DNA from: a bacterium
Lineage (GTDB): Bacteria > Thermosulfidibacterota > Thermosulfidibacteria > Thermosulfidibacterales > JALWSI01
Length of the DNA: 7,618 bases
Reading direction: 5' to 3'
Assembly: GCA_027080315.1 (NCBI GenBank)
Contig: JALWSI010000064.1
Span: 1 to 7,618 of the forward strand
The notes under the pieces are model-generated. The model was not told the origin of the DNA, made no database searches, and was given only the letters and a program-made list of their open reading frames with translations. A program made the position numbers and the translations under genes. Shown here piece by piece: positions 1 through 7,185 of this stretch. Numbering within the stretch: the first letter of the stretch is position 1; the number at the start of each line of letters is the position of its first letter.

Positions 1-1180
1 GCATCATACCCTCTGGAACTATGAGCCTTGGAGACAGAACCTCTCGGGGAAGAGGAAAAGGCTCCTCCATGGAGGGAGGGGTTATGCTCTCAAGAGAGAG
101 AGCCATCTCTTTTAAAGAGAGAATCTCCCCTGAACCAAAGAGATTAGAGATTCCATCTTCTTGAACGGTCCTCCACATGGATCCTTGCATAGTGGAGGTG
201 CTGTGATCAGGAATAACCCCAAACACACCCACAAACCGGCGTCCCTCTTTTGGAGAAAAGTAGAGGGCCAATGGAAAACCGAGGCCCCGATTGGTGTCTG
301 TTAGGCCCTGAAGAAAGAGCTTTATGCGTTTTGCAGGATTGCTGGTCAGTCTGTAGGCATTGCCCAGTTCGTAGAGTATGGATAGATGCGAGATCTGTCT
401 CTCCTTCTCCCCTAAAAGATCGTTAAGTTTGGCAAAAAGCTCAATGTTCTCAAGGAACACATTGGAGACCTCTGCAAGTAGCCTCAGAATCTTCCTGTCG
501 GTTTTTGGAAGACCCCTATGCTCAGAGAAGAAAATCTCAATGGTGCATCTCAACCCCTCTTCTTCTCTAACCTTGAAAACGGCTTTTTTCGCTCCCTTTG
601 CAACCGAACCCTCCTCTACAGGGCAGGAGACCACGGTCTTCTCCCGCCTGCTATCCAGCTTAACCCTCACCATAAGAGGAGAGACCAGTTGATAGGCAGC
701 CTTGCATATCTCATTTGCCAGATCCCTCTGGTTCATAGCCCTTCCAAGCCTACTGACAGCCTGATAGAGGCTGCTCATGTTCCGAGACGCTTTTTCAGCT
801 TCCTCTCTCCTTTTGAAGCCTGACAAGGCTATTCCAAGCTGTTTGCAGAGGGTTGAGAGAAGGAGGGTCTCTTCCTCATCAAAGAAGCCCTCTTTACGGA
901 TTCCAAGGGTGGTTTTTATCCCATCCCGCTCAGAAGAGAAGATCTTAAACCCCTCTTCTCCCTCAAATAAGGAGGATAGAGAGACGCTTCCCGGCGGAAA
1001 GACTATGGGGCGCTCTCCCTCGGCCACAAATACTGCCGCTTGGGCACCAGTGCTACTCACCACAACCTCTAAAACCTTCTGAGCACCCTCTCTAAAGGAT
1101 CTGGAACTGAAAAGGGCCTCACAGCAACTTGCTCCCACGAACAACATTCTGTTCTGGCCATTTCGGGGCAAATCAATCAT
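1..1180 (-). CDS. tandem GAF-type sensor protein, N-terminal part (3' end beyond window)
   Basis: An open frame of 393 codons runs without a stop from 1180 to the window edge, so the C-terminus is missing. Three GAF-like units can be proposed from alternating amphipathic strands and helices: about residues 29-125, 145-258 and 275 to the edge. They are joined by charged helices (about 118-140 and 245-268) that look like signalling linkers. GAF domains bind small ligands or mediate dimerisation, and in this arrangement usually precede a histidine kinase, GGDEF, HD-GYP or sigma-54 output domain; none is visible here. No signal peptide or membrane segment is seen, so it is probably cytoplasmic. 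The chosen ATG overlaps the end of the FapA-like gene by 8 nt (ATGATTGA) with a weak GGAAG site just upstream. A TTG at 1171 and an ATG at 1147 (residue 12) are in-frame alternatives. That the frame is coding is well supported by its length and position; the GAF assignment rests on pattern only. Confidence 0.72.
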   Translation of the reverse strand, partial: MIDLPRNGQNRMLFVGASCCEALFSSRSFREGAQKVLEVVVSSTGAQAAVFVAEGERPIVFPPGSVSLSSLFEGEEGFKIFSSERDGIKTTLGIRKEGFFDEEETLLLSTLCKQLGIALSGFKRREEAEKASRNMSSLYQAVSRLGRAMNQRDLANEICKAAYQLVSPLMVRVKLDSRREKTVVSCPVEEGSVAKGAKKAVFKVREEEGLRCTIEIFFSEHRGLPKTDRKILRLLAEVSNVFLENIELFAKLNDLLGEKERQISHLSILYELGNAYRLTSNPAKRIKLFLQGLTDTNRGLGFPLALYFSPKEGRRFVGVFGVIPDHSTSTMQGSMWRTVQEDGISNLFGSGEILSLKEMALSLESITPPSMEEPFPLPREVLSPRLIVPEGMM

Positions 1181-3176
1181 CCTCTTCCATCTCGCCCACT
1201 TCTTCCACCTCAAAGAGCTCCGCCACAGACTTAAGGCCCTTTTTTGAAAGCACTTCGTTAAGGTATATCCTATCCTCCCTGTCCAGCACCCTTACGAGAT
1301 GAGACTTCATCTCTTCAGGCTCCGAAACCTTCACAACGGCAGTAGGTTCTCCTAAAGGAAATCCCACCAACATAAAGAGTCCTCTACTCTCTTCCCTAAA
1401 GACCTCTTTGCCCTTACCTATCTTCACGTAGTTGTCTCGGCCAATCTCGTTCACCACAAATACAACCCCTTTTGGGGTGCTCTCGTCTTTGATTATCTTG
1501 GTGAGTAGCTCCACATCGTGCCTAAGTCGTTCTATCTTGGCCTCAATCCCAGCAATGGTGTCGTTGTAATCTACAATCTCTTCCACCATCTTCTTGGCAA
1601 ATAGAGGGAGCTTGGGCATCAACTGGGCTTCCACCTTGGGATCACCCTCTGCCAATCGCAAGATAAGGCTCTTTATCTTCAGGTTTGGCACGTTTGTGTT
1701 CTTAAACACGCTGCCCTTAAGCATACGGGTCAGGGCAGTCACCTTCCCCTCTTTTTTGTTCTCCTGCTCTTTTAACTGGGCAAGGGTCTTGGCGATCTGA
1801 TCCTCTGCCGACTCTTTCTGCTCTTTAAGCTTGCGAATCTCTTCCCGTTTCTTCTCTACCTCCATGGGATCAATCACGAAGTTGTTTATCCCCATGGTGT
1901 CAACAATAAGTATGAGCTTAGTGGCAGCAATGGTGGTATGGTTGAGATTCTTCACCCCAAACACTATCTCACCTTCAACCCTGCCCCCAGAGAGCATGTT
2001 CACCTCTACAGTGCGGCTCTTCACAGTGGCATTGTTAGCTCTGGCAATGCTCACCTTTCCATCACACTCAACAGAGGCTCCTGTAACTATGTTGAGCACA
2101 CACTCTTCCTCAGCCCTAATAACGGCGCCTGAGGCCACTGTACCCTTCACAATCACTGCCCTGCCGTCCACAACGGCGTTTCTGCCCACACTGCCTTTAA
2201 TCTCAATGGCCTTGCCTGGAGAAACCACCTTGAAGCCGTCTCTCACCGCATCGGTGGTCTCCATGTCGGTTCCAGAGATGAGAATGTCCACACCCTGAGG
2301 GCGATCTGCCAGATCCACGCTGCCAGTGGAGTAGTCCACCCCCTTCAACTTCAACACTGGGGAGAGAGAGATCTTTCCTTTCTCAATAACAACGAATCCA
2401 TCAACCTTGGCTATAAGTTGATAGATTCTCTTTTTGTCCTTACTCTCCTCCTTCACCTCCAAGGTCTCTTCGTCAACCACAAAGGGAAGAGGTGAAATAG
2501 GTTTAAAAGGGATAACGGCCCCATTAACCTTAACCCCCATCTCCCCAGGAAAGTACTCTACGGTGACCACCACATTGCCGGGCTCTACCTTCCTCTCGGT
2601 GTAGCCCCTGTCTTTAAAGTCCATTCTTCCAGAGCGCTTATCTATGACCCTGCCAGCATAGGTGATGAGTGGCACGTGGTAGATCTCTTCTCGCGAGGGG
2701 TGAACCACGGGTCGCCCCTTAGCCACGACAAAGGTGGACATCTCCCTCTTACCCTTTGACCACTTCTCTAAGATCTTCAGCCACTCATTTTTGATCTCGT
2801 CGTCGCTCACAAGGCCGTAGATAACCCCCTCTAAGGCCATCTTCGCCCTGGTCTTTCTCAAAAGCTCTCCAAGGGCAGGACCCTCGTTCCCCTCTTGAAA
2901 AAAGACCCTCGTGGTGGGCAACACCCTTAGATTAGCAAGGGGAACCGGGTACTCCTCTTCGTCAAGGATGGTGTCAAAGACCTCAACATAGGTATAGGTG
3001 GCAGGATAGACATCCAGGGTGTACTCTGCCACGTATCCCTGGGTGGTGGGAACATGATAGACGTCCATAGAGACCACATCAAAGGAGAGATCCTTTGCCT
3101 CCATTCCATACTCTGCCGCAATCTCCTCCAAGGCCTTTGCAGGATCTCTGGTCTTTACCTGTCTCCCCTTAGGCAT
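1173..3176 (-). CDS. FapA/DUF342-family polymerisation-type protein, with a Jag-N-like N-terminus
   Basis: This 667-residue protein has the FapA (DUF342) layout. Residues about 13-35 resemble the Jag-N/KhpB N-terminal module (AKALEEIAAEYGMEAKDLSF). Residues about 165-425 form the DUF342 core, including a repetitive valine/glycine-rich stretch typical of a right-handed beta-helix (VSPGKAIEIKGSVGRNAVVD, then GRAVIVKGTV and GGRVEGEIVFG). Charged coiled-coil helices follow at about 438-475 and 530-565, and the C-terminus is acidic. FapA proteins are linked to flagellar assembly or polar localisation in some bacteria, but many family members lie outside flagellar loci and their role is unknown. 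No flagellar gene is visible here. The start at ATG 3176 is chosen because AAGGAGGAGG lies 6 nt upstream; it overlaps the topA stop in ATGCCTAA. A 13-residue extension from TTG 3215 is possible but would place that site inside the gene. Family assignment is fairly firm; function is not. Confidence 0.85.
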   Translation of the reverse strand: MPKGRQVKTRDPAKALEEIAAEYGMEAKDLSFDVVSMDVYHVPTTQGYVAEYTLDVYPATYTYVEVFDTILDEEEYPVPLANLRVLPTTRVFFQEGNEGPALGELLRKTRAKMALEGVIYGLVSDDEIKNEWLKILEKWSKGKREMSTFVVAKGRPVVHPSREEIYHVPLITYAGRVIDKRSGRMDFKDRGYTERKVEPGNVVVTVEYFPGEMGVKVNGAVIPFKPISPLPFVVDEETLEVKEESKDKKRIYQLIAKVDGFVVIEKGKISLSPVLKLKGVDYSTGSVDLADRPQGVDILISGTDMETTDAVRDGFKVVSPGKAIEIKGSVGRNAVVDGRAVIVKGTVASGAVIRAEEECVLNIVTGASVECDGKVSIARANNATVKSRTVEVNMLSGGRVEGEIVFGVKNLNHTTIAATKLILIVDTMGINNFVIDPMEVEKKREEIRKLKEQKESAEDQIAKTLAQLKEQENKKEGKVTALTRMLKGSVFKNTNVPNLKIKSLILRLAEGDPKVEAQLMPKLPLFAKKMVEEIVDYNDTIAGIEAKIERLRHDVELLTKIIKDESTPKGVVFVVNEIGRDNYVKIGKGKEVFREESRGLFMLVGFPLGEPTAVVKVSEPEEMKSHLVRVLDREDRIYLNEVLSKKGLKSVAELFEVEEVGEMEEDD

Positions 3177-5247
3177 CTGGAGCCTCCTCCTTATGACCGC
3201 ATCGTGGGCAAACAAGCTTGTCTTTCTGCTGCATCAGATAAGGCAGCCCGCACTCAGGACACTCTTTCTGCACCGGCTTTCCATTGGCTATGGCCCTACA
3301 CTCTGGATACCTGCTACAGCCGTAAAAGACCCCTCTTCTGCTTCTTCTTGGAACCAAGAGACCCTGGCAGCCATCTTTAAAGCAGGGCATCTCAAATTCT
3401 GCCTCAAGCTTGGGGCCCTTTAAGGGCTGGGTGTAGCGGCACTCTGGATAGCCTGTGCACCCCAAAAACTGTCCGAATCTACCAAACTTGATCTCCAAGG
3501 GCTTCCCGCACTGGGGACAGAGCTGCTCTTTGTCAAGCTTCAACGAGCGAACCTTGGCCATGCCATTTTCGGCCTTGGATAGCTCTTTTGAGAAGGGATC
3601 ATAAAACCTCTTCACTATATCAACCCAGTTCTCCTCTCCCTCCTCAACCTTGTCCAAGTTCTCCTCCATCTGGGCTGTAAAGCTGTAGTCAACTATTTTG
3701 GGAAAGTGCTCCACAAGCAGCTTGCTCACCAATCTTCCCAAAGGCGTAGGGAAGAGGGTTCTCTTCTCCCTTCTCACGTATCCCCTGTCTTGGATGGTAG
3801 AAATGATGGTTGCGTAGGTACTTGGACGGCCTATACCCCTTTCTTCAAGGGTCTTCACCAAAGAGGCCTCGGTGTAACGAGGCGGAGGCTGGGTGAAGTG
3901 CTGAGAGGGAATTATCTCAAGCAGCTTCAGCTCTTCTCCCTTCTCAAGTGGAGGAAGTTTGGAGTCCTTCTCCCCATTCTCCTCCTCTCCCTCAATGTAG
4001 AGCACCCTGTATCCCTTGAACTTCAAAACGGACCCCGTAACCTTGAACAGGGCATCCCCAGCCGAGATCTCCACAGTGGTGGTATCAAACAGAGCAGCCT
4101 TCATCTGGCTGGCCAAAAACCTCTTCCAGATCAGCGAATAGAGCCTCCAGAGGTCTCTGGACAACACCCCCTTCAAATTGTCGGGGGTTCTGAGAACAGA
4201 GGTGGGGCGGATACACTCATGGGCCTCTTGTGCCCCTTTCTTGCTCTTGTACTTTGGTGGGGTTGTGGGCAGAAAATCCTTACCCCACTGGGCCTTAACA
4301 AAGTCCCTGGCCTCAGCCTGGGCCTCTTTGGCCACAGAGACAGAGTCGGTTCTCATGTAGGTTATCAGGCCAACGCTACCCTCTTCTCCAAGCTCAACAC
4401 CTTCGTAGAGCTGCTGAGCCAGCATCATGGTCTTCTTTGCTGTGAATCCCAGTTTTCTACCTGCCTCTTGCTGGAGAGTGCTGGTTATGAAGGGGGGCGG
4501 TGGTGACTGACGGCGGGTCTTCCTTTTCACCTCCGCCACCACAAAGGGCTGGCCCTTCAAAGAGTCAACAACCTCCTTGGCCTCTTCCTCTTTGATAAGA
4601 CTGGCTTTCTTTCCCTTCCACTTGAAGAGCTTGGCCTTGAACTGGGGAGGCTTAGACGCCTCCAACAGGGCCTCAACCTCCCAGTACTCCTTGGGAACAA
4701 AGGCCTCAATCTCATCCTCTCTCTCGCAGATGAGGCGCAGGGCAACCGATTGCACCCTGCCTGCAGAGAGGCCCTTCTGCACCTTTTTCCAGAGCAGAGG
4801 GCTGATGCTGTAGCCCACAAGCCTGTCAAGCACCCGCCTGGCCTGCTGAGCGTCAACCTTGTTCTTGTCAATCTTACCCGGATTGGCCAGGGCCTCCTCA
4901 ATGGCCCTCTTGGTGATCTCGTGAAAGGTGATGCGAGCGATCTTTCTCTTGGCCCCTATCTCCTCTGCCACGTGCCAGGCAATGGCCTCTCCCTCACGAT
5001 CCGGGTCAGAGGCTAAATACACCTTCTCTGCCTTCTTGGCCTCTTTTTTGAGCTCGGCGAGAATCTTCTCTTTACCTGGCACCACTACGTAGGTGGGTTG
5101 AAAACCGTTGTGGGTATCAACCCCCAGCTTGTTCTTTGGAAGATCCTTAACATGGCCCATGCAGGCCTTTATGGTGAAATCCTTACCAAGAAACCTTGAA
5201 AGGGTTCTGGCCTTAGTAGGCGATTCAACAACCACAAGCTTCTTCAC
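3169..5247 (-). CDS. topA: DNA topoisomerase I (type IA)
   Basis: A 692-residue type IA topoisomerase that relaxes negatively supercoiled DNA by a transient 5'-phosphotyrosine break in one strand. The N-terminal Toprim domain carries E9 (VVVESPTKA) and the acidic triad D81/D83/E85 (SDPDREGE). The catalytic tyrosine is Y297 in GLITYMRTDS. SAGRVQSVALR (161-171) and ERGIGRPSTYATII (469-482) are further family motifs. The C-terminus holds three four-cysteine zinc modules: C577/C580/C597/C603, C622/C627/C644/C650 and C663/C666/C680/C683. These are expected to bind single-stranded DNA and, in E. coli, RNA polymerase. Length and layout are normal for the bacterial enzyme. The start codon is GTG, with AGGAGG 5 nt upstream, and it overlaps the dprA stop (GTGA). 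The dprA-topA order is common in bacteria. All catalytic residues are present, so the enzyme should be active. Confidence 0.98.
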   Translation of the reverse strand: MKKLVVVESPTKARTLSRFLGKDFTIKACMGHVKDLPKNKLGVDTHNGFQPTYVVVPGKEKILAELKKEAKKAEKVYLASDPDREGEAIAWHVAEEIGAKRKIARITFHEITKRAIEEALANPGKIDKNKVDAQQARRVLDRLVGYSISPLLWKKVQKGLSAGRVQSVALRLICEREDEIEAFVPKEYWEVEALLEASKPPQFKAKLFKWKGKKASLIKEEEAKEVVDSLKGQPFVVAEVKRKTRRQSPPPPFITSTLQQEAGRKLGFTAKKTMMLAQQLYEGVELGEEGSVGLITYMRTDSVSVAKEAQAEARDFVKAQWGKDFLPTTPPKYKSKKGAQEAHECIRPTSVLRTPDNLKGVLSRDLWRLYSLIWKRFLASQMKAALFDTTTVEISAGDALFKVTGSVLKFKGYRVLYIEGEEENGEKDSKLPPLEKGEELKLLEIIPSQHFTQPPPRYTEASLVKTLEERGIGRPSTYATIISTIQDRGYVRREKRTLFPTPLGRLVSKLLVEHFPKIVDYSFTAQMEENLDKVEEGEENWVDIVKRFYDPFSKELSKAENGMAKVRSLKLDKEQLCPQCGKPLEIKFGRFGQFLGCTGYPECRYTQPLKGPKLEAEFEMPCFKDGCQGLLVPRRSRRGVFYGCSRYPECRAIANGKPVQKECPECGLPYLMQQKDKLVCPRCGHKEEAPDA
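3183..3192 (-). promoter_or_regulatory. Shine-Dalgarno site of the FapA-like gene
   Basis: AAGGAGGAGG on the minus strand sits 6 nt before the ATG at 3176-3174 and inside the last codons of topA. It is a near-ideal anti-16S match and decides the start over the upstream TTG. Confidence 0.85.
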
Positions 5248-6332
5248 ATCACCCTCCTGGAATAGACTCCTCCCCTACCCTGAGAGATAATCCCCTTCAT
5301 CTCCATCTCTAAAAGCACCTCCCAAATCTCTGACAGATCCATACCCGCCCTCTGGGCAATAACCTCAGGGGGAAGATCGGCATTCTCAAGGGTCTTCCAC
5401 ACCAACATCTCCTTCCCCTCAAGGGTCTCAGGTTCCTCTGAGGCAGTGTTCATATCAACCTTAAGGCTGATTGAGAGGTGCTCTAATACATCCTCTGCAC
5501 CTGCCGCAACCTTGGCCCCCTCTTTTAACAACCGAGCCACCCCTCTACCCTGGCTTCTGTCAACCCTTCCGGGAACGGCAAAAACTGGAATGCCCATCTC
5601 CTTGGCGTACTGGGCAGTTAACAACGCTCCGCTTCTCTCCCCTGCCTCAACCACCACCACCGCCTCTGCCAAGGCTGCCATCACTCTGTTGCGCTTGGGA
5701 AAGGTCCAGCGTGCAGGCTCCGTGTTGGGGGCAAAGGGAGAGAGCAACAGGCCATTCTCTCTTATCCTCTTCGCCAGGCCCTTGTTCTGGGGAGGATACA
5801 CCCGTCCAAGGCCCGATCCCAGCACAGCAACGGTTCTTCCCGCCTCCAGGGCCCCTTGATGGGCAAAGGTGTCTATTCCTATGGCCATCCCGCTAAGCAC
5901 CATCACCCCTTGAATCGTCAACTCCCGGGCCATGCTGTAGGCCATCTGGTTTCCATAGCCGCTGGCCCTTCTCGTTCCCACAATGGCAACCATAGGCTCT
6001 GACAAAGAGCCCTCATCACCCTGGCAGAAGAGAACCGCAGGCACGCCCTTTTTGCCCTTGAGTTTACTGGGAAACCCCTCGTCAAGTATGGTTATGGCTC
6101 TGCAGCCGCTCTCCTCTATCTCCCTGTTGAGCCGCTCCAGCTCTTTTTGGGGATCAACCTGAAGGATCCGCTCTGCCCTTCTGGGACCGATCCCCGGAAC
6201 TTCAGTGAGCTCCTCCTCTGAGGCCCCAAATACGGAGCTTAAGGGAGAAAACTCTGCCATCACATCCCCTATGGCCTCCATACCCATCCCCAACGCGGTG
6301 TGGAGAACCAGCACAGACTCTCTCTGGGTCAT
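5244..6332 (-). CDS. dprA: DNA-processing protein DprA (Smf)
   Basis: A 362-residue DprA/Smf protein, which binds incoming single-stranded DNA and loads RecA during natural transformation, and is also found in non-transforming bacteria. Domains in order: an N-terminal helix-hairpin-helix/SAM-like region (TEVPGIGPRRAERIL, about 43-57); a Rossmann-type DprA core with VAIVGTRRASGYG (115-127), LSGMAIGIDTFAHQGAL (146-162), TFPKRNRVMAALAEAVVVVE (210-229) and ERSGALLTA; and a C-terminal winged helix (about 304-362). The ATG at 6332 is chosen because homology begins here and it overlaps the stop of a 41-codon ORF (ATGA). No good Shine-Dalgarno site precedes it, so translation is probably coupled to that ORF. 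A 48-residue extension from TTG 6476 is open in frame but is the out-of-frame reading of the small ORF, with no family similarity. The 3' end overlaps topA. Confidence 0.96.
   Translation of the reverse strand: MTQRESVLVLHTALGMGMEAIGDVMAEFSPLSSVFGASEEELTEVPGIGPRRAERILQVDPQKELERLNREIEESGCRAITILDEGFPSKLKGKKGVPAVLFCQGDEGSLSEPMVAIVGTRRASGYGNQMAYSMARELTIQGVMVLSGMAIGIDTFAHQGALEAGRTVAVLGSGLGRVYPPQNKGLAKRIRENGLLLSPFAPNTEPARWTFPKRNRVMAALAEAVVVVEAGERSGALLTAQYAKEMGIPVFAVPGRVDRSQGRGVARLLKEGAKVAAGAEDVLEHLSISLKVDMNTASEEPETLEGKEMLVWKTLENADLPPEVIAQRAGMDLSEIWEVLLEMEMKGIISQGRGGVYSRRVM
5252..5258 (-). promoter_or_regulatory. Shine-Dalgarno site of topA
   Basis: AGGAGGG on the minus strand lies 4-5 nt before the GTG at 5247-5245, within the last codons of dprA. 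It supports a GTG start with translational coupling through the GTGA overlap. Confidence 0.8.
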
Positions 6333-6454
6333 GGCATGTGCTTCAGAAGAAAGGCCAGCAAGAAGAGCCCCGCCACCAAGGCAAGGGGCACAGCGGCTAT
6401 CACCGCCCAGAAGGCCTTTCCGGCCTTGGGCTCTCTCCACTTGGAAAAGGCCAT
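6329..6454 (-). CDS. 41-residue single-pass membrane protein upstream of dprA
   Basis: A complete short frame of 41 codons. The N-terminus MAFSKWREPKAGK is basic (K5, R7, K10, K13), followed by one uninterrupted hydrophobic segment at about residues 15-37 (FWAVIAAVPLALVAGLFLLA, then FLL) and a short KHMP tail. By the positive-inside rule the N-terminus should be cytoplasmic. It is not an ordinary cleaved signal peptide, because nothing follows the hydrophobic segment. AGGAGGA lies 6 nt upstream, the strongest ribosome-binding site near this operon's 5' end, and the stop codon overlaps the dprA start (ATGA). That architecture argues for real translation, and for dprA depending on it. I do not recognise a family. 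It could be a leader ORF whose main role is coupling dprA translation, or a functional membrane peptide. Confidence 0.72.
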   Translation of the reverse strand: MAFSKWREPKAGKAFWAVIAAVPLALVAGLFLLAFLLKHMP

Positions 6455-6460
6455 GGTGTC

Positions 6461-6467
6461 TCCTCCT
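6461..6467 (-). promoter_or_regulatory. Shine-Dalgarno site of the 41-residue membrane protein
   Basis: AGGAGGA on the minus strand lies 6 nt (GACACC) before the ATG at 6454-6452. It is the only strong ribosome-binding site upstream of dprA and supports the short frame as the first gene of the operon. Confidence 0.8.
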
Positions 6468-6474
6468 GTAAAAC

Positions 6475-6502
6475 AAGATACTCCCACTATTGAGAGTTGC
6501 AA
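6475..6502 (-). promoter_or_regulatory. candidate sigma-70-type promoter for the leftward operon
   Basis: On the minus strand TTGCAA (6502-6497) and TATCTT (6480-6475) match 4 of 6 positions each of the -35 and -10 consensus, with a 16-nt spacer. Transcription would start near 6468, leaving a very short leader that begins at the ribosome-binding site. The -35 element lies inside one arm of the inverted repeat. Placement is plausible but the match is modest. Confidence 0.35.
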
Positions 6503-6591: not shown

Positions 6592-7185
6592 ATGGAGCTG
6601 CTGGGTGAGATCTACCCCAAGAGGGTGCTGCTCAAAAACGGTAGATGGGTGACTCTTCGTCCCCTTCAGAGAGACGACGTTGACCCCCTCTACCAGTTCT
6701 TTCTCACCTCTGTCTCTGAAGAGGAGCTGCTCCTGCTGAAGCACAACGTGAAGGACAGGTTTCTCATTGAGTCTTGGTGTACCAACCTGAACTACGAAAG
6801 GGTGCTTCCCTTGGTTGCCATCACCGACGAGGGAAACATCATCGGAGAGGCCACCCTTCACCGCACCGAGTTTGGGTGGTCTTCAAGGATTGCCAAGATA
6901 CGATGCGTCACCTGCAACAGATGCAGGGGTATGGGGCTTGGCAAGACCCTCTTCTCAGAGCTGCTCATGATCGCCAGACAGGAGGGTAAGGAGAAGGTGT
7001 GGGGAGAGATCCTCTCTTCCCAACTTGCACCTGCCGCCATGCTGAAACAGCTTGGGTTTGAACGGGTTGCGGTCATTCCAGGCTTGGCCCGGGATCTCTT
7101 CGGAGCAACCCACGACCTGTGGATCTACATCTACGACTTCACCAAGGAAGAGGCTATGAAACAGGCCCACGAGGATGCTTATTGA
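6592..7185 (+). CDS. GNAT-family N-acetyltransferase
   Basis: A 197-residue cytoplasmic protein of the Gcn5-related acetyltransferase fold, which transfers an acetyl group from acetyl-CoA to an amine. It opens with the usual first strand [18 protein letters not shown] (20-37), and has [15 protein letters not shown] (75-89) as the central strands. The acetyl-CoA pyrophosphate loop is RGMGLG (112-117, pattern RxxGxG) followed by [15 protein letters not shown], and the last strands are [14 protein letters not shown] (151-164) and [10 protein letters not shown]. The substrate cannot be told; the overall form resembles protein or small-molecule acetyltransferases of the Pat/YncA type. An unusual feature is a CX2CX2C cluster (C105, C108, C111) directly before the cofactor loop. 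The gene diverges from the small-ORF/dprA operon and is followed 16 nt later by pyrC, so the two are probably cotranscribed. The start at 6592 has a good ribosome-binding site; the 34-residue upstream extension from TTG 6490 has no GNAT similarity. Confidence 0.88.

Follow-up and report, generated by a model that had tools for sequence, protein, structure and literature searches.

The short open reading frame that lies directly ahead of dprA in this bacterial genome raises the question of whether it encodes a protein with a function of its own, or is a chance frame or a translated leader at the true or false beginning of dprA. The window, that is, the whole stretch of DNA analysed here, comprises 7,618 nt and is the entire contig C64 of a 1.84 Mb assembly in 253 contigs. 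On its minus strand, positions 6454-6329 form a frame of 126 nt, a short length that the limits of some gene callers would nevertheless admit, running from an ATG at 6454-6452 to a TGA at 6331-6329, with the 41-residue product MAFSKWREPKAGKAFWAVIAAVPLALVAGLFLLAFLLKHMP. A Shine-Dalgarno sequence, AGGAGGAG (6460-6467, minus strand), precedes it with an anti-Shine-Dalgarno duplex energy of -10.3 kcal/mol, and its codon score of 0.272 falls within the range of true genes and is reached by none of 230 off-frame pieces. The product has a hydropathy of 2.76 over 19 residues and is modelled by AlphaFold2 as a single helix at residues 13-39 (mean pLDDT 79.6), which together predict one transmembrane helix (6341-6418, minus strand; about residues 13-38). 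With a single predicted hydrophobic helix of about 20-27 residues and a positively charged N-terminal side, it has the features of a bitopic protein. According to the positive-inside rule a basic N-terminus stays in the cytoplasm, which suggests an N-in orientation. Among window frames of 30-80 residues, this is the only one combining a strong Shine-Dalgarno sequence with a strong transmembrane segment.

The frame is followed on the minus strand by dprA (5244-6332; PF02481, DprA_WH and HHH), topA (3169-5247), a FapA-like gene (1173-3176; PF20250, PF03961) and a GAF-like frame. Two genes diverge on the plus strand, one for a GNAT acetyltransferase (6592-7185), at which the operon ends on its upstream side, and one for a pyrC-like amidohydrolase. 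The stop codon of the small frame and the start of dprA share an ATGA (6329-6332, minus strand; TGA 6331-6329, ATG 6332-6330), the GTG start of topA overlaps the dprA stop, and the start of the FapA-like gene overlaps the end of topA. As overlaps of 4 to 8 nt occur at all of these junctions and are thus a local habit of the operon, coupling by itself is unremarkable and says little about function. What stands out at the junction is that the window dprA has no Shine-Dalgarno sequence of its own, with an anti-Shine-Dalgarno pairing energy of -0.2 kcal/mol ahead of its ATG compared to the strong site ahead of the microprotein. The FapA-like gene lies directly 3' of topA in the window, and by eye none was seen at that position in the loci of the related family f2 described below.

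Were the small frame open by chance, dprA could instead begin at the TTG at position 6476, which would add 48 residues in a frame different from that of the peptide, to a total of 410. This extension is in frame and open, and a Shine-Dalgarno-like sequence (-6.8) precedes its start; however, its codon score of -0.182 is that of non-coding DNA, in contrast to that of the peptide frame. In three relatives (L003, L004, L006) ATGA provides the first start in the dprA frame, with no in-frame start upstream, and the single earlier start in a fourth (L005) is an ATG three codons upstream of ATGA, leaving no conserved upstream in-frame start among them. As the peptide is also kept in five genomes, we consider it highly improbable that dprA truly begins at the TTG, and the small frame is, as judged from its sequence features, close to certain to be a protein-coding gene. 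A sequence-only reading had described much of this junction correctly, namely a real small frame with a strong ribosome-binding site, a single transmembrane helix behind a basic N-terminus, a stop overlapping the dprA start, a window dprA with no good site, and an erroneous 48-residue extension of dprA; orthologues of the frame in f2 now add to that description.

The phylum was sampled by nine genomes in three families (f1, f2 and f3), all of the same order. A 40-residue version of the peptide precedes dprA, with the same ATGA overlap, in all four dprA-bearing f2 genomes (L003-L006, all MAGs), so that the overlap is seen in five of the five genomes carrying the peptide. The f2 consensus is MFKRLGENRLSKKAWIVIxGTPLLLILxLLLLSxxIRxGx. 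Peptide and dprA are both absent from the assembly of a fifth f2 genome, which is 73% complete. Database records of the four f2 MAGs are filed under Aquificota, Thermodesulfobacteriota or just bacterium, indicating that naming is unsettled. The fair test of orthology is a profile built from f2 only, as other E-values were obtained with the window itself in the profile; against the f2-only profile the window frame ranks first of 217 frames (E 0.0011). The best pairwise match is between the window peptide (P0001) and L006 (E 5.9e-7), and the similarity of the window peptide to f2 exceeds that of 5000 of 5000 region-wise shuffles (z 5.9). Identity between the window and f2 peptides is only 28-33%, and the orthology of the window copy therefore rests partly on position.

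Comparison of f2 genera revealed that third codon positions take most of the differences; one comparison has 9 at first, 2 at second and 20 at third positions. When the same substitutions were placed at random, as few amino acid changes arose in 0 or 1 of 5000 trials in five of the six comparisons. The remaining one, between close relatives within genus g4, gave 389 of 5000 and is not significant alone. Amino acid changes are far below random placement, and the reading frame is under purifying selection across species. Within f2 the peptide is 70-82% identical compared to 52-77% for DprA, an order that reverses between f1 and f2 (28-33% for the peptide, about 44% for DprA), so that strong constraint is demonstrated for f2 only.

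These patterns bear directly on the suggestion that the peptide merely sets DprA expression, as a translated leader that delivers ribosomes to dprA and whose amino acid sequence is unimportant. Such a leader would fit the strong Shine-Dalgarno sequence of the peptide frame beside a window dprA nearly devoid of one (-0.2 kcal/mol), and the presence of ATGA in all five genomes. It does not, however, fit a peptide conserved more than DprA within f2, and the third-position bias combined with that identity argues for a selected protein and not merely a leader. RNA structure at the junction is also ordinary, being less stable than in shuffled sequences (z 0.4 to 2.3), and we regard a pure leader as improbable. 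Terminator-like matches within the peptide gene overlap coding sequence and were not taken as meaningful.

We therefore favour, with a probability of roughly 0.8, a selected membrane microprotein that is translationally coupled to dprA. The gene of this lineage-specific bitopic protein would open the dprA-topA operon. The microprotein would keep its basic N-terminus on the cytoplasmic side, span the membrane with one helix, expose its last few residues on the outside and have a selected function of its own. Ribosomes would load at its strong Shine-Dalgarno sequence, stop at ATGA and restart on dprA, so that both proteins would be made together; termination-reinitiation is the likely mechanism given the arrangement of the two genes. 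Across the five genomes the Shine-Dalgarno energies of the peptide gene range from -8.8 to -10.3, and the dprA sites are weaker, from -0.2 to -6.9. The sequence hallmarks of a coupled pair (overlap, weak downstream site and conservation) are accordingly clear in the window, with f2 dprA sites that are weak to moderate, and coupling in f2 may be only partial given these sites.

The distribution of the microprotein is narrow. All three f3 genomes keep dprA, there overlapping maf, with no peptide at that place, and the need of DprA for the peptide is consequently not universal. The sequence-only reading had envisaged that a spurious frame would be broken in close relatives retaining dprA; no such break occurs in f1 or f2, whereas the peptide is missing from f3. 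In a DprA tree the window groups with f2 with moderate support (84/81) and f3 is their sister, a topology that accounts for this distribution with either a single gain or a single loss. No comparable coupled peptide was found in 98 dprA loci outside the order, among which two candidates were flagged, one turning out to be a protein with a ferredoxin domain and the other a chance frame. Searching 84,980 species with one short conserved motif and f2 as reference recovered only the four f2 genomes; the same scan yielded no confirmed match when the window peptide served as reference, and a scan of viral contigs returned no relatives. The profile also gave weak matches in G001, G003 and G008 (L043, L052, L041); these run antisense to metF and were attributed to chance. 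Matches with E-values of 1e-3 to 0.1 in 290 genomes included unrelated frames (L039, L042, L044, L048, L053, L054), and the remainder were dismissed by score alone. DUF2516 (PF10724) matched two of the five members at 16.2 bits (E 0.013) against a cut-off of 30.6, and TrkA_TMD also fell below its cut-off; both are typical of hydrophobic stretches.

What the microprotein does is a matter of weighing several indirect indications. In genus g4 a three-gene insertion parts dprA from topA and leaves the peptide next to dprA, which indicates dprA rather than topA as its partner. comEC occurs in eight of the nine genomes of the phylum, making DNA uptake plausible, and this co-occurrence within the phylum is the one tie of the peptide to competence; two of the three f3 genomes have comEC and dprA and no peptide. 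We tentatively suggest that the peptide may be a membrane-bound partner of DprA or of the uptake of DNA, a plausible role that falls well short of an even chance. More doubtful is the specific version in which the peptide represents a new family that is co-translated with DprA and binds it at the inner membrane, where ComEC hands incoming single strands to DprA. At only slightly under even odds stands another branch of the preferred explanation, in which the peptide has a function in the membrane that is independent of DprA, for instance as a small subunit in a respiratory complex or a transporter, and heads the operon by chance. Small single-span subunits are common in membrane complexes, a nuoE-like gene lies divergently upstream of the peptide in f2, and f3 has DprA without the peptide. 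Against this, the divergent neighbour in the window is the GNAT gene, so that the link to dprA alone persists, and the g4 insertion falls 3' of dprA with the peptide-dprA pair intact. Type I toxins of toxin-antitoxin systems are likewise short with a single helix, and in these general terms the peptide is toxin-like in length and structure; nevertheless, it has no paralogues within genomes, it keeps a strict operon position under strong protein-level constraint, and it has no PADLOC or family match, all of which render a small hydrophobic toxin very unlikely.

The selected, dprA-coupled microprotein is of a known general kind. AcrZ, KdpF and CydX are bitopic bacterial membrane microproteins that serve as small regulatory or stabilising subunits. 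By general description they are comparable to the present peptide, being likewise single-helix proteins of around 30-50 residues whose genes lie within operons or close to them and are easily under-annotated. The present peptide differs in having no similarity at meaningful scores to entries of Pfam, NCBIfam, PHROGs or PDB, and no relative in these databases that would lend it a function. The direct order dprA-topA is the same in the window, where their codons overlap, and in genus g2; the difference from other dprA-topA operons is the extra conserved microprotein gene at the head. No paper was found in the literature on such a peptide beside dprA. The novelty is thus the conserved microprotein family, and not the overlap. 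In Bacillus subtilis, DprA/Smf is recruited to the competence machinery and its polar foci depend on ComGA (PMC2216020). Placement of DprA at the uptake site is hence possible there via ComGA with no dprA-linked microprotein. In a phylum of which little is known, the present findings add a conserved gene in front of dprA in its operon, correct the dprA start and provide a concrete candidate membrane partner for DprA; if the peptide is indeed an adaptor, it would show how DprA gets placed near the uptake channel.

Several features of neighbouring and related loci were also observed. The three genes inserted between dprA and topA in g4 lie at L076:7836-10516 and L077:2088-4678, and two of them resemble, in their N-terminal sequences only, thioredoxin-like ferredoxin and NuoF-like proteins near the nuoE locus. 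comEC (PF03772) is found in a conserved run of prfA-like, HU-like and comEC genes at G000:C98:258-3444 (L168), in the genome of the window, and also in G001, the names prfA-like and HU-like being given on sequence appearance. Ahead of nuoE-like genes in f2 lies a 29-bp element, TTGTCAATAGAGAAAATGATTTTCTTCAC, that hardly varies between the loci (L003:624-652; L004 about 1205-1233; L005 about 1186-1214; L006 about 1194-1222) and includes the perfect 7-1-7 palindrome AGAAAATGATTTTCT. Further related copies (L075 about 1311 and 7911; G000:C98 4492-4520 and about 4651-4671) precede nuoA-like genes, among them copies on a different contig of the genome that the window comes from. The element was considered as a dprA operator and rejected, since copies upstream of nuoA-like genes indicate that it seems to belong to the nuo genes, and it looks like a putative operator or promoter of respiratory genes.
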